Of a stretch of DNA of 64,000 nucleotides, positions 51,810 to 63,688 are shown piece after piece. The position numbers and the translations under genes were made by a program. The stretch spans positions 1-64,000 of the forward strand of contig CAIKAR010000053.1 in the NCBI GenBank assembly GCA_903825465.1. Direction: 5' to 3'. The notes below the pieces were generated by a model. The model made no database searches and was not told where the DNA came from. It was given only the letters and a program-made list of their open reading frames with translations. The stretch's first letter is position 1. Each line of letters opens with the position of its first letter. Origin of the DNA: an uncultured Hyphomicrobiales bacterium (GTDB lineage Bacteria > Pseudomonadota > Alphaproteobacteria > Rhizobiales > Beijerinckiaceae).

Positions 51810-52847
51810 TTAGGGATATCGATGGAGCGCGCCTCGGAAATCCTCGACCAGCCAACCACTGTCCGAAGCCGCGGCCGCATAGGAGGGGCCAATCGGGGAT
51901 TTTCCATGGCCGCCGGGGATGTCGAGCACATAAGCGGGCTGGCACAGGCCGGACACGCGCCCCAACAAGCCGCGAACCAGCGCCCGCCCCTCCTCGATGG
52001 ACACGCGCAGATGCGCCGTGCCCGGCGCGAGATCGGGATGGTGGAGGTAATAGGGCTTCACGCGCGCTTCGACGAAGGCGCGCATCAGGGCCGCGAGGGT
52101 CTCGACATCGTCGTTCACGCCCTTCAGCAACACGCTTTGACTGACCATGGGAACGCCGGCGTCGATGAGTTTCGCGCACGCGGCGCGGGCCGCGGGCGTC
52201 AATTCGCGCGGGTGATTGGCGTGGAGGGCGACATAGACGGCGCCGTCGAAGTTTTTGAGCGCGGCGACCGTTTCGCCCGTGACCGCGCCGGGATCGACGA
52301 CTGGCACGCGCGTGTGGACGCGCATGACTTTCACATGCGGAATTTCACGCAGCGCGCCGGCGATTTCCGCCAGCCGGCGCGCCGAAAGCGCGAGGGGGTC
52401 GCCGCCGGTGAGGATGACCTCCCATATGTTTTTGTCGGCGCGGATGTAGTCCAGCGCGCGTGTCATCGCTTGCGGCGACAACACGCCCGCGCCATCGGGG
52501 CCGACGGTTTCGCGGCGAAAACAAAAGCGGCAGTAAACCGGGCAGACGTGGAGCGGCTTCAACAACACGCGGTCGGGATAGCGGTGAACGATTCCCTCGA
52601 CCGGCGAATGGACGGCGTCGCCGATGGGGTCGGCGCGTTCTTCGGGAGCCGTCAGCAACTCGCGGACGTCGGGCAAAAACTGCCTTGCGATGGGGTCTTC
52701 GGGATCGCCGCGGTCGATCAGCGCGGCGATTTCGGGCGTCACCGACACCGCGTAGCGCGCCGCGACGCGCTCGATATCGGCCACGTCGCCGGTCGCCAGC
52801 AATCCCGCCGCGCGCAAGTCCGCGGGCGCGCGCAGCGGCTTGCTCAT
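51810..52847 (-). CDS. epmB: EF-P beta-lysylation lysine 2,3-aminomutase EpmB
   Basis: The 345-residue radical SAM enzyme turns alpha-lysine into beta-lysine for EF-P modification. The cluster motif CPVYCRFC gives C102, C106 and C109; a PLP lysine is expected in the C-terminal part (segment GHGKSPIG). It lacks the long C-terminal extension of clostridial KamA. Its ATG overlaps the epmA stop (ATGA), and efp lies beyond, so the assignment to EF-P modification is strong. Confidence 0.93.
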   Translation of the reverse strand: MSKPLRAPADLRAAGLLATGDVADIERVAARYAVSVTPEIAALIDRGDPEDPIARQFLPDVRELLTAPEERADPIGDAVHSPVEGIVHRYPDRVLLKPLHVCPVYCRFCFRRETVGPDGAGVLSPQAMTRALDYIRADKNIWEVILTGGDPLALSARRLAEIAGALREIPHVKVMRVHTRVPVVDPGAVTGETVAALKNFDGAVYVALHANHPRELTPAARAACAKLIDAGVPMVSQSVLLKGVNDDVETLAALMRAFVEARVKPYYLHHPDLAPGTAHLRVSIEEGRALVRGLLGRVSGLCQPAYVLDIPGGHGKSPIGPSYAAAASDSGWLVEDFRGALHRYP

Positions 52848-53905
52848 GACGCGGCCACCGGCGTCCACATGACATGCTCGACCGAGGGCGCGCCCGTGGC
52901 CAGCATGACCAGACGATCGACGCCGAGCGCGATGCCGCTCGCGGCGGGCATGCTGGCCAGCGCGGCGAGGAAATCCTCGTCGAGGGGATAGCGTTCGCCG
53001 TGGATCCGCTCGCGCTCGTCCATCTCCGAGACGAAGCGGCGGCGTTGTTCAACCGGGTCGGTCAACTCGCCGAAGCCATTCGCCAGTTCAACGCCGCAGG
53101 CGTAAAGCTCGAAGCGCTCGGACACGCGCGCGTCGTGGGCGCAGCGCCGCGCCAGCGCCGCCTCGCACGCGGGATATTCGGTCAACGCGGTCATTTTGCC
53201 GACGCCGAGACCGGGCTCGACCAGCGACACGAGAATCTTGCTGAAGGCGTCCGACCAGGTGTCGTCGGCCGATGTCTCGAACCCCGACAGCGCGGCGGCG
53301 ACGCGCAGCTTGCGCGCGTCGGGCGCGCCGTCGCGGCCCATGGTTTCGAAGAGGTCGATCTCCGCGCGCCGCCTGAAGGCCTCGCGAACGGTCAGAAGCT
53401 CGGGCGGGGCGTGGGGGTCGCATTCGCGCCCGCGCCAGCGCAGCCGCGAGGCGCCCGCGAGCCGCGCCGCTTCGCCGACGATCCAGCCGCAATCCTCGAT
53501 CAGGCGGCGATAGTCCTCGCCGACGCGGTACCATTCGAGCATCGTGAACTCGGGATGGTGCAGCGCACCGCGTTCGCCGTTGCGAAACACGCGGGCGAAG
53601 GTGAAAATCCGCTCCTCGCCCGCCGCCAGCAGCTTCTTGCAGGCGAATTCAGGCGAGGAATGCAGATAAAACGGGCGCTTGCCGCCGTCGGGGCCGGCGA
53701 GCTCGGTGGCGAAGCCGGCGATGTGCGCCTCGTTGCCGGGCGACACCTGGAGAACCGCGGTTTCGACTTCGACGAAATCCCTCACGGCGAATCCGGACCG
53801 CCAGGCGTCCATCATGCGGCCGCGCGCCAGCAGCGCCGGGCGGCGGTCGGCGTGGGTTTGGCGGTCCCAGAAGGGCCGCGCGCCCTGTAAGGAAACTGTT
53901 GTCAT
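52844..53905 (-). CDS. epmA: EF-P lysine ligase EpmA (PoxA/GenX)
   Basis: The 353-residue protein is a class II lysyl-tRNA synthetase-like core without the anticodon-binding domain. Motif 2 is seen in [19 protein letters not shown] and motif 3 in [12 protein letters not shown]. EpmA attaches (R)-beta-lysine to EF-P instead of tRNA. It is the first gene of epmA-epmB and is divergent from efp, 115 bases away. Confidence 0.94.
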
Positions 53906-54020: not shown

Positions 54021-54590
54021 GTGAGAGTCATCGCCAGCTCCATTCGCAAGGGCAATATCGTCGAGCACGAGGACGGCCAGCTCTACGCGGTGCTGACCGC
54101 CGAGAGCTTCCACCCCGGCAAGGGCACGCCGACCACCACCATCGACATGCGCCGCATCTCGGACGGCGTGAAGACCCAGGTGCGCTACAAGACGACCGAG
54201 CAGGTCGAGCGCGCCTTCGTCGAAGACGCCAATTTCAGCTACCTCTATTCGGACGGCGACGGCAACCACTTCATGAACGAGGCCACCTTCGACCAGGTGC
54301 CCGTCGGCGACGACGTGCTCGGCGGTCAGAAAATCTTCCTTCAAGAGGGCATGAAGGTCGTGCTTTCCGTGTTCAATGGCGTCGCCGTGGCGATACAGCT
54401 TCCGCAGCGGGTCGTGCTCGAGGTCGTCGAGACCGAGCCGGCGATGAAGGGCCAGACAGCGTCGTCGTCGTTCAAGCCCGCGAAAATGTCGAACGGCGCG
54501 CGCGTCATGGTGCCGCCCCATATCCAGACCGGCACCCGCGTCGTTGTGCAGACCGAAGACGGCAGCTACGTCGAGCGGGCGAAGGACTGA
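54021..54590 (+). CDS. efp: Elongation factor P
   Basis: The 189-residue protein rescues ribosomes stalled at proline runs. Three beta-barrel domains are visible, with the EF-P loop HPGKGTP placing the modified lysine at K34, exactly as in EpmA substrates. The start is GTG 54021, giving the usual N-terminus; no ATG is suitable. The nearby epmA and epmB supply the K34 modification; EpmC is not seen. Confidence 0.97.
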
Positions 54591-54613
54591 CCAGCGTCGA
54601 CAGGGCAAGCGGG

Positions 54614-55027
54614 ATGCGCCGTTGGGTCATCGCCTACGTTTTTTGCGCGGTCGCGATCTTCGGTTGCGATGCCGTCTGGCTGTCGTGGTCGAGCGGGCAT
54701 CTCTATCGGCCGTTCGTCGGAAACATGTTGATCGACGGATTTCGCCCGGTCCCCGCCGCCTTGTTCTACCTTCTGTACGTTCTTGGCGTCGTGACGCTCG
54801 CCATCCTCCCCGCGCTTCGCGACAACGCGTGGCGGGACGCGACGCTGAAGGGCGCCGTTCTGGGACTTGTCGCCTACGGCACCTATGATCTCACCAATCA
54901 GGCGACGCTCAAGGAGTGGTCGACCGTCGTCACCGCCGCGGACATGGCGTGGGGGACTTTCCTGACCGCCGCGGGCGCCACCTGCGGCTATTTCGCGGCG
55001 TCCCATCTCGCGCGGCCAAATTTGTAG
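54614..55027 (+). CDS. DUF2177 family membrane protein
   Basis: The 137-residue membrane protein has four hydrophobic segments and the DUF2177 hallmarks: DAVWLSW in the first helix and GLVAYGTYDLTNQATLK between helices. Function unknown. It follows efp by 23 bases and its last 40 bases overlap the end of the convergent membrane gene. Confidence 0.9.
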   Translation: MRRWVIAYVFCAVAIFGCDAVWLSWSSGHLYRPFVGNMLIDGFRPVPAALFYLLYVLGVVTLAILPALRDNAWRDATLKGAVLGLVAYGTYDLTNQATLKEWSTVVTAADMAWGTFLTAAGATCGYFAASHLARPNL

Positions 55028-55551
55028 AGGATAAAAACGAAGAGGCACGCGACGCTGAACGCGTTCATGCGGCGGAAGGCGGCGTATTCCATTGACGAAA
55101 ACGCGCGCAACGGCGCGCCATACTCGCCATGAAGCGTGAAAAACGCGGCGATTGGCAACGCCGCTGTCGCGACGGCCCAACGCAATTCGCTTTTGTGAAA
55201 CGACATCGCGCCAATCAGCGCGCAGGGCGCGAGAAACAATTCCACGCCCGACGCCGCCCCGAAAACCTTGGCGCAGAAAACCGTGTTCGCGGCGCCGACG
55301 ACGGGCAGGAGCGCGCGGCTCGCCAGCGAATGTCGGCGCGCCAACAGCGGAACCGCGGCGAAAAACGGCGTCGATAAAAACGTCAGGAAGGACGCGTAGC
55401 CGTCGTCGCCGACAAGCCACCAGACATACAGCGGATAGAAAGGCTGATTGCCCAGAATCACCAACGCGACCGCGCTGGAGGCCGCGGCGAGGGGGTCCAC
55501 GGCCCTCAGCCACTCGCCGGCGCGGGCGAGCGCGCGCGCGATCTTAGCCAC
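54988..55551 (-). CDS. Small multi-pass membrane protein at the end of the RpoE/ChrR run
   Basis: The 187-residue protein has five or six hydrophobic segments (for example AAASSAVALVILG, FAAVPLLARR region and MNAFSVACLFVFILYKF). I recognise no family. GTG 55551 overlaps the last codons and stop of the Cfa-like gene (GTGGCTAA), so it is translationally coupled and belongs to the rpoE-chrR operon. A role with the membrane-lipid enzymes is inferred from this position only. It overlaps the convergent DUF2177 gene by 40 bases. Confidence 0.65.
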   Translation of the reverse strand: MAKIARALARAGEWLRAVDPLAAASSAVALVILGNQPFYPLYVWWLVGDDGYASFLTFLSTPFFAAVPLLARRHSLASRALLPVVGAANTVFCAKVFGAASGVELFLAPCALIGAMSFHKSELRWAVATAALPIAAFFTLHGEYGAPLRAFSSMEYAAFRRMNAFSVACLFVFILYKFGRARWDAAK

Positions 55552-56578
55552 CGAGCGCGGGGGCCAGACGATAATGGCTGACGCCCCATTCGCGGCCGCC
55601 GGCGTGGCCGAACAATCCCGCTGTGGCGAGAAAGAACAGGCGCCACCGGCGCGTCCACAAGGCCGCGTCGGCGCCATAGATCCGCGCGAGGATGGGATCG
55701 ATTTCATTCCGATGCGCGTCGAAATTGGCGAGCCAATCGCGCGCCGTGCGCTCGTAGTGGCCGCCATTCCACCGCCACTCCTCCTCCACGGAAAACAGCT
55801 CCGGAAACCGGCCGATCAAACCATGGCTGGGCATGATGCCGCCGGTGAAGAAATGCTGGGCGATCCAGTCGGTCTTGTCCTCGCGCTCGAAACGATAAGG
55901 CTCGGACCGGTGCGTGAACACGTGGACGAACATGCGTCCCTCCGGCGCCAGCCAATCGCGGGCGCGCCGCAACAGGTCGCGCCAGTTCGACATGTGCTCG
56001 AACATCTCGACCGACACGATCCGGTCGAACGTCCCTTCCGGCCCGAACGTGTTCATGTCCGCGGTGATCACCCGCAGATTGACCAGCCCGCGCCGCGCGG
56101 CCTCCGCCTCTATCGAGGCGCGTTGGCCTCGCGAGTTGGACACCGAAACGATTTGCGCAGAGGGAAACCGCGACGCGATGTAGAGCGACAGCGAGCCCCA
56201 GCCGCAACCCAGTTCAAGCACGCGTTGGCCATCGGCTATTTGGGCGTGTTCGACCGTCAGCGCCAGGGCGCGCGCCTCCGCCTCGGCAAGGCTGGCGAAC
56301 GGCGTGTCGTAGTGGCAGCACGAGTATTTTCGATGGGGGCCAAGCACGAGCGCGAAGAACTCCGCCGGCAGCTCGTAGTGCTGCGCGTTGGCTTCCGCGG
56401 TGTTTTCGGCGATTGCGCGCGAGGGCATCGACCGGGCGAACGCTTCCTCGACGCCCGGTTTGGCGCGCGACAGTTTGCGCCGCGCGCGGGACACGAGAAA
56501 ATCGACCCCGGCTCTCGTCGCGACATCCGGCAAGGGCACTCTTTCGACGGCGTTTATCGTCGCGGCGAGCAGGCTCAT
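55544..56578 (-). CDS. Cfa-like SAM-dependent lipid methyltransferase (first copy)
   Basis: The 344-residue protein has the cyclopropane-synthase-like fold: YSCCHYDTPFASLAEAE, the SAM loop VLELGCGWGSLSLYIA, VEMFEHMSNW and HFFTGGIMPSHG. The Cys of YSC, the Glu of FEH, the His of FVHVF and the Tyr of GGHYERT match the four bicarbonate-site residues of E. coli Cfa, so the chemistry site is complete. It would methylate unsaturated acyl chains of phospholipids. ATGA overlap with the DUF1295 gene upstream and coupling to the membrane gene downstream place it in the rpoE-chrR operon. It may be one of the furan fatty acid methylases (UfaM or FufM type); this is inference. Confidence 0.87.
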   Translation of the reverse strand: MSLLAATINAVERVPLPDVATRAGVDFLVSRARRKLSRAKPGVEEAFARSMPSRAIAENTAEANAQHYELPAEFFALVLGPHRKYSCCHYDTPFASLAEAEARALALTVEHAQIADGQRVLELGCGWGSLSLYIASRFPSAQIVSVSNSRGQRASIEAEAARRGLVNLRVITADMNTFGPEGTFDRIVSVEMFEHMSNWRDLLRRARDWLAPEGRMFVHVFTHRSEPYRFEREDKTDWIAQHFFTGGIMPSHGLIGRFPELFSVEEEWRWNGGHYERTARDWLANFDAHRNEIDPILARIYGADAALWTRRWRLFFLATAGLFGHAGGREWGVSHYRLAPALGG

Positions 56579-57408
56579 GGCGCGTTTCTCCCTGTGGCGT
56601 CGAAAGCGCTTCGACGAGGTGGACCCGGAAAAAATATGTTCACGCGGGCCTGATAGGCTTCGAACTTGGCGCCGCGCGACCGCAGCATGGCGGCTTCGAG
56701 AGGCGGCACGCCCGACACATGCGCCAGCAGCCAGTACATCATCACCGGCCCAAGCATGGCGAACCATCCCCACGAAATGGCCGCGGAGCCGCCGACCCCG
56801 ATCAACGCGTAGGAGACCCAGACAAGGCACTCGAAGAAATAATTTGGATGCCGCGACAGCCCCCACAGCCCTGTGTCGCAAACATTCCCCCGGTTGGCGG
56901 GATTGCTTCTGAAGTGTTCAAGCTGGCGGTCGGAAATGGTTTCGCCCACAAGCGACACCGCGAAAACGGCCACGCCAAGAAAGTCGAACACGCCCGGAAA
57001 GACCGCTGGATTTCGCGCGGCCGTCAGCGCGCCGAGGACCAGGACCAGGCTTGCCAAGGCCTGAATTTGCAGGAACCAGAATAGCCGCGCGGCGAACGCG
57101 TCCCCCCACTGGCGCGCGAGATCGGCGTATCTTGGATCATCGCCGCCATGGAGCGTCCGCGCGGCGATGTGCGCGCCGAGGCGCAGGCCCCACAATCCAA
57201 TCATCGCGCCCACAAGCGCCGCCCGCGCGGACGGCCAAGGCGCGCACGCAGGCGGGAAACACGCCAACGCGGCGCCCACGCCGCCTGTCGCGAAAGACCA
57301 GATCGCGTCGATCCAGCCCGATTTGCCCGTCTTTCGCCGCGCCAGCCAAGCCAGCGCCATGCAGAGCGACAGCGCCACGCCCGCTATCAAAACGACAACC
57401 ACTGGCAT
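56575..57408 (-). CDS. DUF1295 membrane protein (steroid 5-alpha-reductase-like)
   Basis: The 277-residue membrane protein has about seven hydrophobic segments and the DUF1295 C-terminal signature: CDTGLWGLSRHPNYFFECLVW and YQARVNIFFPGPP. The family resembles isoprenyl-cysteine methyltransferases and steroid 5-alpha-reductases that act on lipids in the membrane. GGAGG lies 7 bases upstream. It sits between chrR (15 bases away) and a Cfa-like gene (ATGA overlap), so a part in acyl-chain modification is likely; it could supply the oxygen- or reductase-type step of such a pathway, but this is not shown. Confidence 0.85.
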   Translation of the reverse strand: MPVVVVLIAGVALSLCMALAWLARRKTGKSGWIDAIWSFATGGVGAALACFPPACAPWPSARAALVGAMIGLWGLRLGAHIAARTLHGGDDPRYADLARQWGDAFAARLFWFLQIQALASLVLVLGALTAARNPAVFPGVFDFLGVAVFAVSLVGETISDRQLEHFRSNPANRGNVCDTGLWGLSRHPNYFFECLVWVSYALIGVGGSAAISWGWFAMLGPVMMYWLLAHVSGVPPLEAAMLRSRGAKFEAYQARVNIFFPGPPRRSAFDATGRNAP

Positions 57409-57423
57409 GGCGCGCCTCCAACG

Positions 57424-58086
57424 CTAGTCGCCGAAAATCGCCTGATGCAACCGGCCGGCCATGCCGTGGTGTCGCGTCGAACCCTCGGCGGCCACCAGGC
57501 AAACACAGGCCTCGCCCGGTTCGACGACCGGGCGGTGATCGACGCTTTCATCGACCTCGCAGAGATCACCGGCCGCGAACCTGGCCCTGCCGTCGTGAAA
57601 CGCGCCGGCCAGGACGCAGGTCCATTCGACGCCGCGATGTCCATGCATCAAAAGGCGCTTGCCGGGCTGAACGCTCAGCAGCTTCACGTTGAACGCGCGC
57701 GCCCAATGCGCCCGGGCGCGGCTCACGCGAATTCCCGGCGCGATGGTCCTCCAGGGGCTAAAATCGCAATCGCCGACGGATTGCGGCAGCGCCACTCCCT
57801 TGGGCATTTCGACCCGGGAAGCCGGCGGGGCGGGCGGCGCTTCCCCTGGCCGCGGCGCGTCGCGCTCGATCGCGGCGAGCGCGCGCGCCAGCCCGTCCGC
57901 GGGAACATCGGCGTCCGGCAAAAGCTCGAGGAGCGCGCCGGCCACCCGCTCGAAGTCTTCCACAACCCCGCCGCAGCGCGCGCAGCCGGCGACATGCGCG
58001 CCAACGACGGCCGACGGGCCCAGGCCGAGGCTCCCGTACGCGAGGCGCAGCAGGGTTTCATCGCTGGGATGTCGCAGATCGCTCAT
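57424..58086 (-). CDS. chrR: Anti-sigma factor ChrR (zinc and cupin domains)
   Basis: The 220-residue protein has the two ChrR domains. The N-terminal zinc anti-sigma domain carries H6, H31, C35 and C38, the same ligand numbers as Rhodobacter sphaeroides ChrR. The C-terminal cupin-like domain carries H148, H150, E154 and H184, matching the HxH...E...H metal site of the known protein. ChrR holds RpoE inactive until singlet oxygen or organic peroxide triggers its degradation. Its ATG overlaps the rpoE stop (ATGA). It is followed by the DUF1295 gene 15 bases on. Confidence 0.92.
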   Translation of the reverse strand: MSDLRHPSDETLLRLAYGSLGLGPSAVVGAHVAGCARCGGVVEDFERVAGALLELLPDADVPADGLARALAAIERDAPRPGEAPPAPPASRVEMPKGVALPQSVGDCDFSPWRTIAPGIRVSRARAHWARAFNVKLLSVQPGKRLLMHGHRGVEWTCVLAGAFHDGRARFAAGDLCEVDESVDHRPVVEPGEACVCLVAAEGSTRHHGMAGRLHQAIFGD

Positions 58087-58637
58087 TTCAAATCGTCCAA
58101 AAGCCGGCGGAGGTGACCGATCGCCAGTCGCGCCCGCGATTTCACGGTTCCCAAAGGCAGACCGAGCGATTGGGCGATGGCGGAATGGGGCTTTTCGTCG
58201 AAATAGAGGCGCTTGATGATCTCCGCCTGCTCGGCGGAGAGCGACGCCAGAGCCTGACGCACGCGTTCCTCGCTTTCAGCCTGAATGAGCGAACTGTCGG
58301 GAGGCGCGGGACTTTCCTGGGCCTGGCTGGGATCGTCGGGCGCCGCGTCGCGCCCGCTGGCGCGGCGGTGGTGATCTATGCGCAGGTTCCGCGCGATCGT
58401 GAGAATCCATGTCGAGGCGCCGGCGCGCGACGCGTCGAAATAAGACGCCTTGCGCCAAACGGTCAGCATTGTTTCCTGCGCCAGTTCTTCGGCGACATTG
58501 TTCGCCATGCCCAAACGCACGAGATAATTCCTCACCCGCGGCGCGTAAAATTCGTACACGCGCGCAAACGACGCGCGATCAGCCGATTTGGCGATCGATT
58601 GGATCAATTCCTCGAAATTGTCCTGCCGCGGCGGCAC
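58083..58637 (-). CDS. rpoE: RpoE-like ECF sigma factor partnered with ChrR
   Basis: The 184-residue protein has sigma region 2 at about 20-92 (YEFYAPRVRNYLVRLGM, EELAQETMLTVWRKASYFD) and region 4 at about 125-178 (LSAEQAEIIKRLYFDEKPHSAIAQSLGLPLGTVKSRARLAIGHLRRLL). Start GTG 58637 is chosen because GGGAG lies about 10 bases upstream and the length is right; an upstream ATG at about 58747 coincides with the predicted transcription start and is rejected. It is coupled to chrR by ATGA and is probably autoregulated. Confidence 0.9.
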   Translation of the reverse strand: MPPRQDNFEELIQSIAKSADRASFARVYEFYAPRVRNYLVRLGMANNVAEELAQETMLTVWRKASYFDASRAGASTWILTIARNLRIDHHRRASGRDAAPDDPSQAQESPAPPDSSLIQAESEERVRQALASLSAEQAEIIKRLYFDEKPHSAIAQSLGLPLGTVKSRARLAIGHLRRLLDDLK

Positions 58638-58753
58638 GATGGCTACGCTCCCGATCGCGGTTCGAAGCGACGCGGCCAGCGCGCCGGCAACTGTCCCGGG
58701 CGAAACCGTCCCCGGCAAAGTGTATTCGTGGATCGCGGACGCATGCATGCTCC

Positions 58754-58783
58754 AGAATACGGCGCCGTCGGCGAAATGGATCA
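58754..58783 (-). promoter_or_regulatory. Candidate RpoE promoter for rpoE-chrR
   Basis: On the minus strand TGATCC (58783-58778) is followed after 18 bases by TATTCT (58759-58754). TGATCC is the -35 type described for Rhodobacter sphaeroides RpoE. The predicted transcript would begin about 110 bases before the chosen rpoE start. It lies back-to-back with a similar element for the opposite operon. Confidence 0.65.
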
Positions 58784-58797
58784 CCCCGTCGCGAATG

Positions 58798-58827
58798 TGA
58801 TCCGAAAGAGGATCGATAGCGTATCGA
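58798..58827 (+). promoter_or_regulatory. Candidate RpoE promoter for the rightward lipid operon
   Basis: On the plus strand TGATCC (58798-58803) is followed after 18 bases by TATCGA (58822-58827). It faces the FAD-protein gene at 58906, leaving a leader of about 70 bases. Its -35 is 14 bases from the minus-strand copy, so the two RpoE-type promoters diverge from one centre. Confidence 0.65.
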
Positions 58828-58905
58828 CATGGCGGGTCAATCCAACCTCGCGGCCTTTTCCGAGCGGCGCCGGTCGCCAGGCGGGGGCATTTGGAGTGGG
58901 TGTCC

Positions 58906-60249
58906 ATGCGTGCGCGCGGATTGAACATCGCGGTTGTGGGCAGTGGCGTGGCGGGGCTCTCCGCCGGCTGGCTGCTGTCGCAGGGCAACAGCGTGACTTT
59001 GTTCGAGGCGGACGGACGGCTCGGCGGCCACGGCAACACCGTCGACGCTTATTCGCCGAACGGCCCCGTGGCGGTGGACACCGGGTTCATCGTCTACAAC
59101 GAAGCGACCTATCCGAATCTTGTCGCGCTCTTCAGGCACCTGAACATACCGACGAAAGAGTCGGACATGTCGTTCGCCGTTTCCATCGACAATGGCGCGC
59201 TCGAATACAATGGCACCAACCTCGCGGGCTTGTTCGCTCAACCGTCCAATTGTCTGCGGCCGCGCTTCTGGCGAATGTTGCTCGGAATTCGGCGATTTTA
59301 TCGGGAGGCGGCCGCCGACCTCGCCGTCATGGGAGACATGTCGCTCAACGACTATCTCAAGCGGAAGGGATATGACGCGGCGTTTCGCGACGACCACCTC
59401 CTGCCCATGGCGGCCGCCATCTGGTCCACGCCCGCCGATCGGATTGGCGAATACCCGGCCGCGGCGTTGGTCCGCTTTTGCCAAAACCACGGCCTTCTCC
59501 AGGCGCGCGACAGGCCCGCGTGGCGCACCGTGGATGGCGGCAGCCGGGTCTATATCGAGCGTCTTGCGCGGGAAATATCGCCAGCCATTCGGACAAGCGC
59601 GCCCGTTAAGAGCATTCGGCGAACGAGCGATGGCGTCGCCGTGCGAACACAGGACGGCGACGAGGAGACCTACGACCATGTGGTTCTGGCGAGCCACGCC
59701 GACCAGTCGCTGGCCATTCTCGCCGATCCCACGCCGCGGGAGCGCCGCCTCCTTGGCGCCTTTCATTACGGCGCGAACGACGCCGTTCTGCATACGGACG
59801 CCGCGCTGATGCCGAAACGCCGCGCGGCGTGGGCGAGCTGGAACTATCTCGCGCGATCGGGGGCTTCGCGAACGCGCCCGTGCGTCACCTACTGGATGAA
59901 CAACCTGCAAGGCATTCCGGGGCCGACTCCGCTTTTCGTGACCCTCAATCCAGACAGGCCGATCCGCGAGGACCGCGTTTCACAAAAGTTTTGTTACGAA
60001 CATCCGCTCTTCGACGCCGCCGCCATGGACGCGCAAAAACAGCTTTGGTCGCTCCAGGGCGACGGCGGCGTCTGGTTTTGCGGCGCGTATTTCGGGTCCG
60101 GCTTTCACGAGGATGGATTGCAGGCGGGCCTTGCCGTCGCCGAACAACTGGGCGGCGCGCGCCGGCCCTGGACCGTCCCGAACGAATCATCCCGCATCTG
60201 GATCGACGGCGCGGAGCGGCGGCGCCCCGCGCGGGAGGCTGCGGAATGA
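58906..60249 (+). CDS. FAD-dependent amine-oxidase-like protein (candidate fatty acyl desaturase)
   Basis: The 447-residue protein has the dinucleotide site AVVGSGVAGLSAGWLL (G12, G14, G17), the GGHGNTV motif after the second strand, VDTGFIVYNEATYPNL and the C-terminal FAD segment WFCGAYFGSGFHEDGLQAGLAVAEQL. Close relatives lie with DUF1365 and Cfa genes in RpoE regulons; one of these enzymes is the proposed desaturase UfaD of furan fatty acid synthesis. GGAG precedes ATG 58906; TTG 58891 is possible but less likely. Its TGA overlaps the DUF1365 start. Confidence 0.85.
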   Translation: MRARGLNIAVVGSGVAGLSAGWLLSQGNSVTLFEADGRLGGHGNTVDAYSPNGPVAVDTGFIVYNEATYPNLVALFRHLNIPTKESDMSFAVSIDNGALEYNGTNLAGLFAQPSNCLRPRFWRMLLGIRRFYREAAADLAVMGDMSLNDYLKRKGYDAAFRDDHLLPMAAAIWSTPADRIGEYPAAALVRFCQNHGLLQARDRPAWRTVDGGSRVYIERLAREISPAIRTSAPVKSIRRTSDGVAVRTQDGDEETYDHVVLASHADQSLAILADPTPRERRLLGAFHYGANDAVLHTDAALMPKRRAAWASWNYLARSGASRTRPCVTYWMNNLQGIPGPTPLFVTLNPDRPIREDRVSQKFCYEHPLFDAAAMDAQKQLWSLQGDGGVWFCGAYFGSGFHEDGLQAGLAVAEQLGGARRPWTVPNESSRIWIDGAERRRPAREAAE

Positions 60250-61031
60250 GCTTGCGAAACAGCGCGCTTTACGTGGGATCCGTGAGTCACACGCGCGTGC
60301 GGCCGCGCCGCCATCATTTGCGCTATCGCATGTTTTCGCTGCTCGTCGATCTGGACGAGTTGCCGCGCGTCGCCCGGCATTGCCGTTTGTTTTCGCATAA
60401 TTCGTTCAACTTGTTCAGTTTTCACGACCGCGATTTCGGTGACGGCGGGGCGACGCCGCTGCGCGAACAGGTCGAAGCCATTTTGACAAGCGCGGGCATT
60501 CCCAGCGACGGCCCCATAAGAATATTCGCCATGCCGCGCGTGCTGGGGCACGCGTTCAATCCGATCAGCGTCTTCTTCTGCCATAGCGCCGACGGCGGTC
60601 TTCGCGCCGTGCTTTACGAGGTCCACAATACGTTTGGCGAGCGCCACAGCTATCTCTTGCCGGTTTCGCCCGACGCTGGCCCGCTCATCCGCCAACAGTG
60701 CGACAAGGAGTTCCACGTCTCGCCGTTCATGGACATGCGAATGAAATACCGCTTTCGCGTGAAACCGCCGGGCGATTCCATTCGTATCGGCGTCATGAGT
60801 TCCGACGACACCGGACCGATGATAGCGGCGACATACGCGGCGACGCGCGTTTCGTTGAGCGACGCCTCGCTGGCCCGGGTCTTCGCGACCCATCCGCTTG
60901 TCACCTTGAAGGTTGTTGGCGCGATCCATTGGGAAGCGCTGCGCCTTTGGCTGAAGGGCGTTGGCGTGCGTTCCAAGCCGCCGCCGCCCCGGACATTGGT
61001 GACAATCGGCCGGCCCGAATTCGAGAGTTGA
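60246..61031 (+). CDS. DUF1365 family protein
   Basis: The 261-residue protein has the DUF1365 hallmarks: YVGSVSHTRVRPRRHHLRYRMF near the start, RIFAMPRVLGHAFNPISVFFC in the middle and KEFHVSPFMDMRMKYRFRV. Conserved His residues in these motifs suggest metal or lipid chemistry, but no activity is established to my knowledge; in Rhodobacter a homologue is needed for the RpoE singlet-oxygen response. ATGA coupling to the FAD gene and 12 bases to the next Cfa gene make one operon. Confidence 0.88.
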   Translation: MSLRNSALYVGSVSHTRVRPRRHHLRYRMFSLLVDLDELPRVARHCRLFSHNSFNLFSFHDRDFGDGGATPLREQVEAILTSAGIPSDGPIRIFAMPRVLGHAFNPISVFFCHSADGGLRAVLYEVHNTFGERHSYLLPVSPDAGPLIRQQCDKEFHVSPFMDMRMKYRFRVKPPGDSIRIGVMSSDDTGPMIAATYAATRVSLSDASLARVFATHPLVTLKVVGAIHWEALRLWLKGVGVRSKPPPPRTLVTIGRPEFES

Positions 61032-61043
61032 AGAGGTTCAACG

Positions 61044-62279
61044 ATGTCCAGCGCCGAAACCAACGCGTTGAACGGCTTCGCGCGGCCAAAGGCGGCGCGG
61101 GGGTCCTGGATTGGCGCGACGGCGCTGAGGCAGGTGCTCGCGGTTCTTCAGATCGGCCGTCTGCGCGTGACGCTTCCTTCGGGCGAAGAGATCGACTGCG
61201 AGGGCTCGTCGCCGGGGGTCGAAGCCGACTTGACCATTCACAAATGGCGCGCGTTGCGCCGACTGGCGAGCGGCGGCGACATCGGCTTCGCGAAATCCTA
61301 TATCGACGGGGACTGGTCGACCTCCGATTTGACGCGTCTGATCGAACTGGTCGCGGTCAACGGGCCCGACATCGTCGCGCGCATGAGCGGCCACGCGCTG
61401 TTTCGGGCGGCGAATTGGCTTTCGCATCTTCGCCGCGCCAACACCCGCGCCGGGAGCCGGCGCAACATCGAAGAGCACTACGACCTCGGCAACGATTTCT
61501 ATCGCTTGTGGCTCGACGGATCGATGCTTTACTCGTCGGCGGTCTACGCGGGCGAGACCGACACGCTGGAAGAGGCGCAGCGGCGGAAAATGGATCACAT
61601 CCTGGAGCTTCTCGATGTTTCGCCAGGGCAGTCGGTGCTTGAAATAGGCTGCGGCTGGGGCGCGCTGGCCTGCGAAATCGCGCGGAAAGCGGACGTTCGC
61701 GTCACGGGGATCACGCTGTCTCCGTCACAGCTCGCGTTCGCCGCCGACCGCGTCAGGACGCGGCGGTTGGAAGAGCGCGTGGATCTTCGCATCGAGGACT
61801 ACCGCGACACCAGGGGACAGTTCGATCGAATCGTGTCGATCGAGATGATAGAAGCGGTGGGGCTCAAATATTGGCCAAGCTATTTCGACACCCTCGGAAA
61901 TGGGTTGAAACCCGGCGGCGTATCCGTTGTGCAAGCCATCACGATCTCCGAAGACCGGTTTGAAGCCTACCGGGCCCGGCCGGATTTCATCCAGCGTTTT
62001 ATTTTTCCCGGCGGATTTCTGCCGACGAAAAGCGCGCTCGCGCTGGCGGCGACGCGCGCGGGGCTCGAATTGCGGGAAACCCGCCACTTCGGCGCGAGCT
62101 ACGCGCTGACGCTGCGGGAATGGCGCAAGCGCTTCGTCCAGGCGTGGCCGCAAATTCGCGAACTTGGCTTCGACGATCAATTCAAACGCCTGTGGGAATA
62201 CTACCTTTGCTACTGCGAGGCGGGGTTCAAGACCGGCGCGATCGACGTCGGGCTTTACGCGTTCGTTCACAAGGCTTGA
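61044..62279 (+). CDS. Cfa-like SAM-dependent lipid methyltransferase (second copy)
   Basis: The 411-residue protein has the full cyclopropane-synthase layout: IEEHYDLGNDFYRLWLDG, YSSAVYAGETDTLEEAQ, the SAM loop VLEIGCGWGALACEIA, EMIEAVGLKYW and FGASYALTLREW. Two residues of the E. coli Cfa bicarbonate site differ: S165 stands for Cys139 and Q297 for His266, while E270 and Y353 are kept. It may therefore not make cyclopropanes but methylated olefins, as the furan fatty acid methylase UfaM does. It is the third gene of the rightward RpoE-type operon. Confidence 0.9.
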   Translation: MSSAETNALNGFARPKAARGSWIGATALRQVLAVLQIGRLRVTLPSGEEIDCEGSSPGVEADLTIHKWRALRRLASGGDIGFAKSYIDGDWSTSDLTRLIELVAVNGPDIVARMSGHALFRAANWLSHLRRANTRAGSRRNIEEHYDLGNDFYRLWLDGSMLYSSAVYAGETDTLEEAQRRKMDHILELLDVSPGQSVLEIGCGWGALACEIARKADVRVTGITLSPSQLAFAADRVRTRRLEERVDLRIEDYRDTRGQFDRIVSIEMIEAVGLKYWPSYFDTLGNGLKPGGVSVVQAITISEDRFEAYRARPDFIQRFIFPGGFLPTKSALALAATRAGLELRETRHFGASYALTLREWRKRFVQAWPQIRELGFDDQFKRLWEYYLCYCEAGFKTGAIDVGLYAFVHKA

Positions 62280-62325
62280 CCCGCGGCTGGCCAAGGTTCC
62301 GACGAAATCGAAATGCGATGGCATC

Positions 62326-62697
62326 ATGCGACGAATGGCTTGTTTCGCCGCGTTTTGGGTGGCGCTTTCCACACCCTGCGTGGCGCAAGGCCTCGACGGC
62401 GAGTGGGCGCGAGGCGATGGCCAGGCGCGCGTGCGCATCGAAGCCTGTGGAACCTCGACTTGCGCCATCAACACCTGGATCAAGGATCCGGCGAGCGGCG
62501 AAAAAGTCGGCGACCGCCTGATTATGAACGTCGAGGCTTCGGGGCCCAACAAGTTCGCCGGTCAAGCGTCGGATCCGCAGCGAGGCCTCACCTACAACAT
62601 CGAAATCGACATGGCGTTGGCCAACGCGATGACGACGCGGGGCTGCGTGCTCGGACACCTGCTCTGCAAAACAGTTGGTTGGACGCGGATTAAATGA
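62326..62697 (+). CDS. DUF2147 exported protein
   Basis: The 123-residue protein has a signal peptide (cleavage near VAQG) and the DUF2147 layout: DGEWARGDGQARVRIEACGTSTCAI, INTWIKDPASGEKVGDRLI and a C-terminal GCVLGHLLCKTVGWTRI with Cys residues that probably form disulfides. Function unknown. It follows the second Cfa gene by 46 bases; ATG 62335 is an alternative start. Confidence 0.82.
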   Translation: MRRMACFAAFWVALSTPCVAQGLDGEWARGDGQARVRIEACGTSTCAINTWIKDPASGEKVGDRLIMNVEASGPNKFAGQASDPQRGLTYNIEIDMALANAMTTRGCVLGHLLCKTVGWTRIK

Positions 62698-62713
62698 GCG
62701 GCGGGTCGCGCCA

Positions 62714-63688
62714 ATGCCGCTAGCCGCGGCGATCGCGCTGGCCACGGCGGCGGCGGCTTCAGAGCTGTTCACCTGGGCGTGGAGCCGCGCCATTTCAAAG
62801 CGTTATCCGCCGACAGGCCAGTTGGTATTGCTGGGTCATGGGAAAATCCACTACACGCGCCGCGCGCCCGAGGTCGCGGCGCTTGGGCATGTGTTGCTCA
62901 TTCACGGCGCCAGCGGCAACGAGGCGGACATGATGATTCCCCTCGGCGACAGGCTGGCGGCGAAGGGATTCGATGTCGTCGCCATTGACCGGCCGGGGCA
63001 TGGTTGCAGCGATCGCCTTGGCGCCGACACGTTGAAGGCCCAGGCCGCGACAATCGCGCTGTTCTGCCGGCGCATGGGCGTCGGCCCGGCCATCGTGGTG
63101 GGACATTCGCTGGGGGGCGCCGTTGCGACGACCCTTGCGCTGGAAAACGCCGAACTAACGGCCGGGCTTGTTCTGCTCTCGTCGGTCACGCATCCCTGGC
63201 CGGGCGGGGCTGTGGGATGGCATTCCCGGGTAGCGGCGGCTCCCGTCATTGGCCGCCTGTTCGCGTGGACGCTGGTGGCGCCGGTGGGGTTGTCGACCAT
63301 CGATCGTCTGCTGACGACGGTTTTCGCGCCGCAACCCACGCCGGCGGACTATGCCGCTCGCACAGGCGTGAAGCGCGTGCTGAGGCCCTCCAATTTCATC
63401 GCGAACGCGCGGGATTTGCTCGATTTATATCCAACGGTGAAATCGCAGGTGGCGCGGCTTTCAACCATCAAATCGCCGACCGCGCTGATCGCGGGCGACG
63501 AAGACAAGGTTGTTTCCACGCGGATTCACAGCATGGCCGCGCACGCCGCCATCGACGGCTCGCGATTGACGATATTGCGCGAGACGGGACATTCCCCTCA
63601 TTGGAGCCAACCGGACCTCGTCGTCGACGCCATTTGCGCGATCGCGTTGCGGAGAAACCACGCGGATATGTCGGCATCGGGCGCGTAG
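62714..63688 (+). CDS. Alpha/beta hydrolase with N-terminal membrane helix
   Basis: The 324-residue protein begins with a hydrophobic helix (about 1-25), then the hydrolase core: LLIHGASGNEADM (oxyanion), nucleophile elbow GHSLGG with S132, acid in IAGDEDKV and His in ETGHSPHWSQ. It may act on lipids at the membrane, fitting the lipid-modifying operon it closes; this is inference from position. ATG 62714 is close behind the DUF2147 stop. Confidence 0.82.
   Translation: MPLAAAIALATAAAASELFTWAWSRAISKRYPPTGQLVLLGHGKIHYTRRAPEVAALGHVLLIHGASGNEADMMIPLGDRLAAKGFDVVAIDRPGHGCSDRLGADTLKAQAATIALFCRRMGVGPAIVVGHSLGGAVATTLALENAELTAGLVLLSSVTHPWPGGAVGWHSRVAAAPVIGRLFAWTLVAPVGLSTIDRLLTTVFAPQPTPADYAARTGVKRVLRPSNFIANARDLLDLYPTVKSQVARLSTIKSPTALIAGDEDKVVSTRIHSMAAHAAIDGSRLTILRETGHSPHWSQPDLVVDAICAIALRRNHADMSASGA

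Follow-up and report, generated by a model that had tools for sequence, protein, structure and literature searches.

A stretch of 64,000 nucleotides from an uncultured Hyphomicrobiales bacterium (assembly GCA_903825465.1, contig CAIKAR010000053.1, positions 1 to 64,000; hereafter the window) carries what is in all likelihood a complete RpoE/ChrR locus for the singlet-oxygen response, predicted to give membrane phospholipids methylated furan fatty acids, probably of the dimethyl type. The module itself is of an already known kind. What appears new is a complete, self-regulated locus for the dimethyl product, a pair of promoters that alone among the exact-motif sites of the genome lie outside genes, and the putative membership of the DUF2177 and DUF1295 proteins. 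A preceding sequence-only reading had proposed a self-contained RpoE/ChrR lipid-remodelling module, possibly for methylated furans, a proposal to which the gene order of the right arm, the clade of its methylase UfaM, the match of the regulator and the promoters lend support.

All genes named in that reading were found at the locus by Pfam and NCBIfam. These searches and an alignment of ChrR bore out that an extracytoplasmic function (ECF) sigma factor and a ChrR with two metal sites head a leftward run opposite a rightward run. Reading frames overlap by a few bases between RpoE and ChrR, between DUF1295 and the left methyltransferase, between this methyltransferase and the following membrane protein (whose GTG start overlaps the methyltransferase stop codon), and between the flavin adenine dinucleotide (FAD) gene and DUF1365, as expected for an organisation in two operons. 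The features are listed below with position, strand and supporting evidence (E, expectation value).

54614..55027, +, DUF2177, small predicted membrane protein (Pfam PF09945, E 1.2e-40), convergent with the left operon
54988..55551, -, membrane protein, weakly MASE7-like (Pfam MASE7, E 0.0022, below cut-off); GTG start judged by eye
55544..56578, -, FufM-like S-adenosylmethionine methyltransferase, predicted furan fatty acid methylase (Pfam CMAS domain; PDB relatives; tree)
56575..57408, -, DUF1295 membrane protein, sterol/steroid-reductase-like predicted fold (Pfam, E 2.9e-60)
57424..58086, -, ChrR anti-sigma factor, zinc-type and cupin metal sites (TIGR02451, 146.8 bits, above cut-off)
58083..58691, -, ECF sigma factor RpoE, ECF11 type (best PDB match 2q1z); exact start uncertain
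58758..58783, -, sigma-E promoter of the left operon, TGATCC-N16-CGTA (position weight matrix score 24.0)
58798..58823, +, sigma-E promoter of the right operon, TGATCC-N16-CGTA (position weight matrix score 17.7)
58906..60249, +, predicted UfaD-like FAD desaturase (Amino_oxidase, E 5e-25)
60246..61031, +, predicted UfaO-like DUF1365 oxygenase (PF07103, E 6.4e-83)
61044..62279, +, predicted UfaM-like fatty acyl methylase (CMAS-type; identity to Rhodopseudomonas genes; tree)
62326..62697, +, DUF2147 protein (PF09917, E 4.4e-14)
62714..63688, +, alpha/beta hydrolase, possible final gene of the right operon (Abhydrolase_6, E 7.8e-25)

The right arm corresponds to UfaD-UfaO-UfaM

The furan pathway has been proven in Rhodobacter (Cereibacter) sphaeroides and Rhodopseudomonas palustris, where cis-vaccenate is methylated by UfaM and desaturated by UfaD, oxygen from O2 is introduced by UfaO (DUF1365), and a further methyl group is the work of FufM (RPA0924) (PMC7380195). 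We found the order UfaD-UfaO-UfaM in 7/7 Rhodopseudomonas genomes, as in the window, so that the comparison of gene order with this genus recommended in the sequence-only reading came out in its favour for the right arm. The window proteins are 47-48% (UfaD), 45-49% (UfaO) and 46-48% (UfaM) identical to those of the seven genomes, of which three are named and four belong to the genus g148, taken to be Rhodopseudomonas from the 84-86% identity of its FufM-like protein to two named Rhodopseudomonas records. UfaO and UfaD were assigned as orthologues by family, identity and order, and UfaM additionally by a tree of 68 rows. In this tree the window UfaM falls into a 38-row clade with six Rhodopseudomonas UfaM rows (98/98), outside which lie the Cfa rows from Rhodopseudomonas and from the window's own genome. 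For the tree, 20 of the 80 FufM loci described below and six of the seven Rhodopseudomonas UfaM genes were taken; L107 entered it as a long fragment that is poorly filled.

The structural model of UfaO (predicted local distance difference test, pLDDT, 94) is mostly beta and gave weak lipocalin/nitrobindin-like matches, while a profile search of the PDB with UfaO returned no matches. His15, His23 and His134 are invariant in 41 sequences. UfaO may perhaps adopt an unusual oxygenase fold.

The regulator is of the R. sphaeroides type and faces two sigma-E promoters

Among solved structures the best match of RpoE is R. sphaeroides RpoE (2q1z, E 8.5e-35; runner-up 3.3e-18), and ChrR aligns over its full length with R. 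sphaeroides ChrR (2z2s, E 3e-24; also 2q1z). In the alignment to 2z2s, ChrR retains the His-His-Cys-Cys zinc site and the cupin HxH...E...H, conserved residues which we take to be the metal ligands. It is the only match in the genome above the cut-off of the ChrR model (124.5); a second, weak ChrR-like cupin stretch lies on another contig (G000:C116:6133-6405, 36.2 bits). Together with an ECF11 promoter on both arms, these matches support the regulator of R. sphaeroides type that had been postulated.

The 3.9 Mb genome contains six copies of the motif TGATCC-N16/17-CGTA and one of the reversed pattern. Two of the six copies, both perfect TGATCC-N16-CGTA, occupy the gap between the arms and point away from each other (58783 leftward, 58798 rightward). 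This pair, one promoter per arm, agrees with the earlier claim that regulator and enzymes share one locus with two operons. The other four copies lie inside genes or long frames, as judged by eye, and were rejected as further targets; the genome-wide scan covered the exact motif only, and relaxed promoters, e.g. of a photolyase, could escape it. Within the window, a weight matrix derived from relatives scored at least 12 only at these two sites. For Pseudomonas syringae, the motif printed for the targets of ECF11 is identical (excerpt of PMC5507510).

For comparison we used 80 related loci (1,464,044 bases), the best 80 of 410 confirmed, selected by alignment to a Rhodopseudomonas-type FufM; FufM is present in them by construction, many are cut by contig ends, and gene starts in relatives are estimates. 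Matches were obtained for DUF1295 in 60 loci, UfaD in 56, UfaO in 55, DUF2177 in 51, RpoE in 39 (including other ECF sigma factors of about 30% identity), UfaM in 32 and ChrR in 31. TGATCC and CGTA at a spacing of 15-17 gave 68 sites, 66 of them with a spacing of 16. Of these 68 sites, 62 lie at most 350 bases upstream of a module gene (RpoE 27, UfaD 19, DUF2177 10, DUF2147 4, FufM 1, DUF1295 1), as compared to 0 and 1 sites overall for two control patterns, and the placement of the promoters is therefore not due to chance. A perfect motif at L186:18381 (-) has no known module gene downstream and may mark an extra member of the regulon.

The left methyltransferase groups with FufM rather than with Cfa

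The left methyltransferase (about 344 amino acids) had initially been taken for a Cfa-like enzyme. Its best PDB relatives are coclaurine/pavine N-methyltransferases (E 6.7e-61, against 7.3e-25 for the best Cfa), and in the tree the window copy falls with the Rhodopseudomonas copies, which stand in for RPA0924, into a coclaurine-N-methyltransferase-like FufM clade (100/100, 24 rows). Both the PDB ranking and the tree thus reject a second or classic Cfa. The NCBIfam Cfa model does not discriminate here, as its cut-off (400) is missed by the left (141 bits) and the right (258) enzyme alike. In the Rhodopseudomonas genomes, CMAS-type genes (E <=1e-12) number three at most, namely UfaM, a Cfa (4/7 genomes) and the gene at the FufM position, the latter two being 34-37% and 28-30% identical to the window UfaM, respectively. 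The R. palustris set comprises RPA2569, RPA3082 and RPA0924, of which RPA3082 is 38% and RPA0924 26% identical to R. sphaeroides UfaM (PMC7380195); the two sets fit each other. FufM is also 37.87% identical to Arabidopsis AT4G33110/LIME1 (excerpt of PMC10940516). Because the left methyltransferase is FufM-like, a dimethyl furan fatty acid is predicted as the likelier end product of the locus.

Co-occurrence was evaluated in 297 genomes of a single order, which are not independent of each other; the hypergeometric test ignores this kinship, and its P values overstate. In this sample the left enzyme was found at full length in 27 genomes (at least 57% identity) and as a partial copy in 3, with the next matches at about 35%. 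Of these 30 FufM genomes, 26 also carry DUF1365 (expected 17.2) and 26 carry DUF1295 (expected 6.1), the latter counted only when strong (E <1e-30, 60 genomes; the cut-off of Pfam itself passes 126, and the weaker ones were dropped). A FufM-like gene without DUF1365, DUF2177 or strong DUF1295 was observed in G035, G194 (partial copy) and G270 (family f36), where it may act on other substrates or be a remnant.

DUF2177 and DUF1295 appear to be accessory members of the module

Among the 297 genomes, 170 carry DUF1365, 123 DUF2177 and 60 strong DUF1295. DUF1365 accompanies DUF2177 in 121/123 genomes (expected 70.4) and strong DUF1295 in 58/60 (expected 34.3). Presence varies within families: of 12 genomes from the window's own family, 5 have DUF1365 and DUF2177 and 7 have neither. 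Genomes with DUF2177 and DUF1365 include, among those listed, 11 of only 0.9-1.6 Mb. A Caulobacter vibrioides/crescentus genome used as a control likewise gave matches to DUF1365, DUF1295, DUF2177 and the ChrR model. DUF1295 lies at most 10 kb from DUF1365 for 34/57 genes with a listed position (34/55 excluding two on other contigs), and in the three named Rhodopseudomonas loci it is located directly 5' of the FufM gene; a deletion of RPA0923, the number preceding fufM, is listed for R. palustris in an excerpt of PMC7380195. DUF2177 was matched in 51/80 related loci, in 10 of them with its own sigma-E site, and in genome G042 it is on a different contig from the ufa genes. The module as first drawn missed DUF2177 (54614-55027), just outside its range.

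Two small genomes (1.4 and 1.3 Mb) hold RpoE, ChrR, UfaD, UfaO, UfaM and DUF2177 together (L177 and L178), a candidate minimal module; no DUF1295, FufM or exact motif was found in these two stretches. Based on the co-occurrence counts and the fetched stretches, the module seems to be built in grades, the core with DUF2177 being joined by DUF1295 and then by FufM. The window holds all of them and represents the fullest form, with the core, DUF1295 and a predicted dimethylating FufM under one promoter pair. Together, these data suggest that DUF2177 (by synteny) and DUF1295 belong to the module as regular accessory members.

For the rightward run, membership of the FAD, DUF1365 and right-hand methyltransferase genes was upheld, but that of its last two genes was weakly supported. 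DUF2147 was matched in 17/80 related loci, 4 of them with their own sigma-E site. The hydrolase was matched in only 1/80 and was rejected as a conserved member. The membrane protein ending the leftward run has matches in 23/80 loci, and one of four relatives scanned exceeds the MASE7 cut-off.

Possible resemblance of DUF1295 to sterol and steroid reductases

In a Foldseek search with the predicted DUF1295 model (pLDDT 93.6), a delta-14 sterol reductase came first (4quv, template modelling (TM) score 0.58, E 0.01). The search also returned two steroid 5-alpha-reductases (0.46, 0.40), the chloroplast protein AtTam46 in fourth place (8xku, 0.52) and ICMT (5vg9, 0.38); no match fell below E 0.001. 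A sequence profile compared with the PDB ranked 7c83 (E 9e-4) ahead of AtTam46 (0.004), human SRD5A2 (0.013) and ICMT (4a2n, 0.04), and a single-sequence search of the PDB gave no matches. RHPNY, a candidate cofactor motif, is invariant in 50 sequences. On trapping singlet oxygen, furan acids are converted to an ene-dione by ring opening, and ene-diones are a substrate type of sterol/steroid-type reductases. The likeliest reading of DUF1295 is a putative membrane reductase dependent on reduced nicotinamide adenine dinucleotide phosphate (NADPH), with a sterol/steroid-reductase fold, that would act on an oxidised or unsaturated acyl product.

Neighbouring genes and related loci

Beside the locus, what is presumably an EpmA/GenX-like gene (52844-53905, -) is arranged divergently to elongation factor P (54022-54591, +), apparently a modifying enzyme next to its protein. 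A census of the neighbourhoods in the related loci returned mostly genome neighbours of Bradyrhizobium and Rhodopseudomonas, in addition to one cluster of esterases (18 loci) and one of adenosine monophosphate (AMP) ligases (9 loci). The esterase-type protein (BD-FAE/alpha-beta hydrolase) recurs near the module in those 18 loci, e.g. at L105:2801-3694. Novosphingobium rosa NBRC 15208 carries the locus in two copies on two contigs (L105 and L129).

Discussion

In the mechanism that we infer for this organism, comprising induction, chemistry and product as well as any role of DUF1295 and DUF2177, singlet oxygen would cause the loss of ChrR, and RpoE would then use the back-to-back promoters (TGATCC-N16-CGTA) to transcribe both arms, so that, besides the enzymes, its own gene and ChrR would increase by feedback. 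UfaM would methylate cis-vaccenoyl chains, UfaD would introduce a second double bond, UfaO would insert oxygen derived from O2 and thereby close the furan, and the FufM-like enzyme would add the second methyl group.

Several observations weigh against this scheme. The exact motif precedes RpoE in 27/39 loci with an RpoE match and UfaD in 19/56, DUF2177 in 10/51 and DUF1295 in 1/60, and exact motifs are present in 4/10 further stretches fetched. By weight matrix, no site was found upstream of the DUF1295-FufM pair in 10 loci of L065-L075, nor upstream of DUF2177 in the window. No match to photosynthetic reaction-centre genes that would account for a source of singlet oxygen was found in the host genome. 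DUF1365 is missing from four of the 30 FufM genomes, including an assembly that is 85% complete. Finally, UfaM, UfaD and UfaO are enough to give R. sphaeroides the monomethyl furan, and in vitro UfaO is active in a wheat-germ system (PMC7380195); DUF1295 and DUF2177 thus seem dispensable for monomethyl catalysis, unless R. sphaeroides has copies of its own.

An improbable alternative is that the left enzyme makes cyclopropanes or N-methylates small molecules, and that the locus yields a monomethyl furan acid only. Such an enzyme would fit its CMAS domain, the alkaloid N-methyltransferases that are its best solved relatives and its occurrence in the four genomes without DUF1365, but the gene sits in a furan locus and shares a clade with the FufM-position genes of Rhodopseudomonas. 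Moreover, the other CMAS-type genes in the seven Rhodopseudomonas genomes were only UfaM and, in 4/7, Cfa, as fits RPA3082 and RPA0924. The separation of UfaM from Cfa in the tree and the presence of UfaO, a member of the furan-closing enzyme family, speak in addition against a locus that answers organic peroxides or general light stress and makes branched or cyclopropane lipids without any furan; we regard this as very improbable, even though ChrR systems respond to tert-butyl hydroperoxide too and the host genome gave no reaction-centre match that would indicate phototrophy. A singlet-oxygen locus with a dimethyl furan product remains our preferred reading.

As to the accessory proteins, DUF1295 and DUF2177 might be passengers that share the regulation as part of a general membrane stress response and have no link to furan lipids. 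This is unlikely: monomethyl furan synthesis, in R. sphaeroides as in vitro, apparently does without them, and DUF2177 can be apart from the ufa genes, as in G042, but DUF2177 occurs with DUF1365 almost throughout the genomes sampled, including the 11 small ones listed, and in an alga with an unrelated regulator both proteins are induced alongside a set of furan type. For DUF1295, an ICMT-like methyltransferase or a partner supplying electrons to UfaO, rather than a reductase of the acyl product, is somewhat unlikely. ICMT is a weak match by profile and by fold, AtTam46 ranks second by profile and fourth by fold, and the reductant of UfaO is still an open question; sterol/steroid reductases, on the other hand, come first by both profile and fold, with no Foldseek E reaching 0.001. 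Tentatively, and with the balance leaning slightly the other way, we propose that alphaproteobacteria and green algae share an ancient defence against singlet oxygen based on furan lipids, of which DUF2177 and DUF1295 are as yet unrecognised components; DUF1295 would be an NADPH enone reductase clearing the ene-dione and DUF2177 a membrane partner.

The locus makes the two proteins candidates for the reduction of UfaO, for the clearance of oxidised furan lipids, a question that we raise here ourselves, and for signalling the loss of furan lipids to the breakdown of ChrR. The whole predicted dimethyl pathway and its switch are packed into about 9 kb and could be moved into a laboratory strain. 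Apart from the Chlamydomonas study described below, we found no paper joining DUF1295 or DUF2177 to furan, singlet oxygen or ECF11, in a search that was thin on subscription journals and is weak evidence of novelty.

Comparison with known systems

In Chlamydomonas, 104 singlet-oxygen genes depend on SAK1 by the count of the paper, with a log2 induction of 5.92 for CFA1, 4.05 for CFA2, 3.50 for DUF1365, 3.25 for DUF2177 and 3.04 for DUF1295 (PMC4067076, Table 5). These five genes stand within the first 25 rows and are reduced to 0.04-0.12 in sak1; CFA2 is CPLD27, a coclaurine N-methyltransferase (Table 9). The paper discusses the Cfa link, and each DUF name appears in it once, in Table 5 (PMC4067076). 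The set corresponds to the families of the predicted furan enzymes of the window plus the two accessory proteins, UfaD not being named in the table. Chlamydomonas differs in being a eukaryote, in its regulator and in the separate numbers of the genes. The likeness suggests a single conserved membrane defence as opposed to separate responses; according to an excerpt of PMC8491031, a lipid change of this type was still under test in Chlamydomonas in 2021.

The core regulon of R. sphaeroides (RSP_1092-1093, 1087-1091, phrB, cfaS/ufaM) has the regulator pair, UfaD, UfaO, UfaM and the promoter type in common with the window. As printed in Table 2 of PMC5507510, the core list comprises six targets in three loci, including a photolyase, a short-chain dehydrogenase/reductase and a lipoprotein, and FufM, DUF1295 and DUF2177, all present in or beside the window locus, are not on this printed list. 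R. palustris shares the enzyme set (ufaD-ufaO-ufaM and RPA0924, fufM), its genes RPA2571-2570-2569 (ufaD-ufaO-ufaM) matching the right arm in content and order. However, Rhodopseudomonas keeps the FufM pair and ufaDOM in separate places, whereas the window brings all the enzymes together with RpoE-ChrR in one divergent locus.

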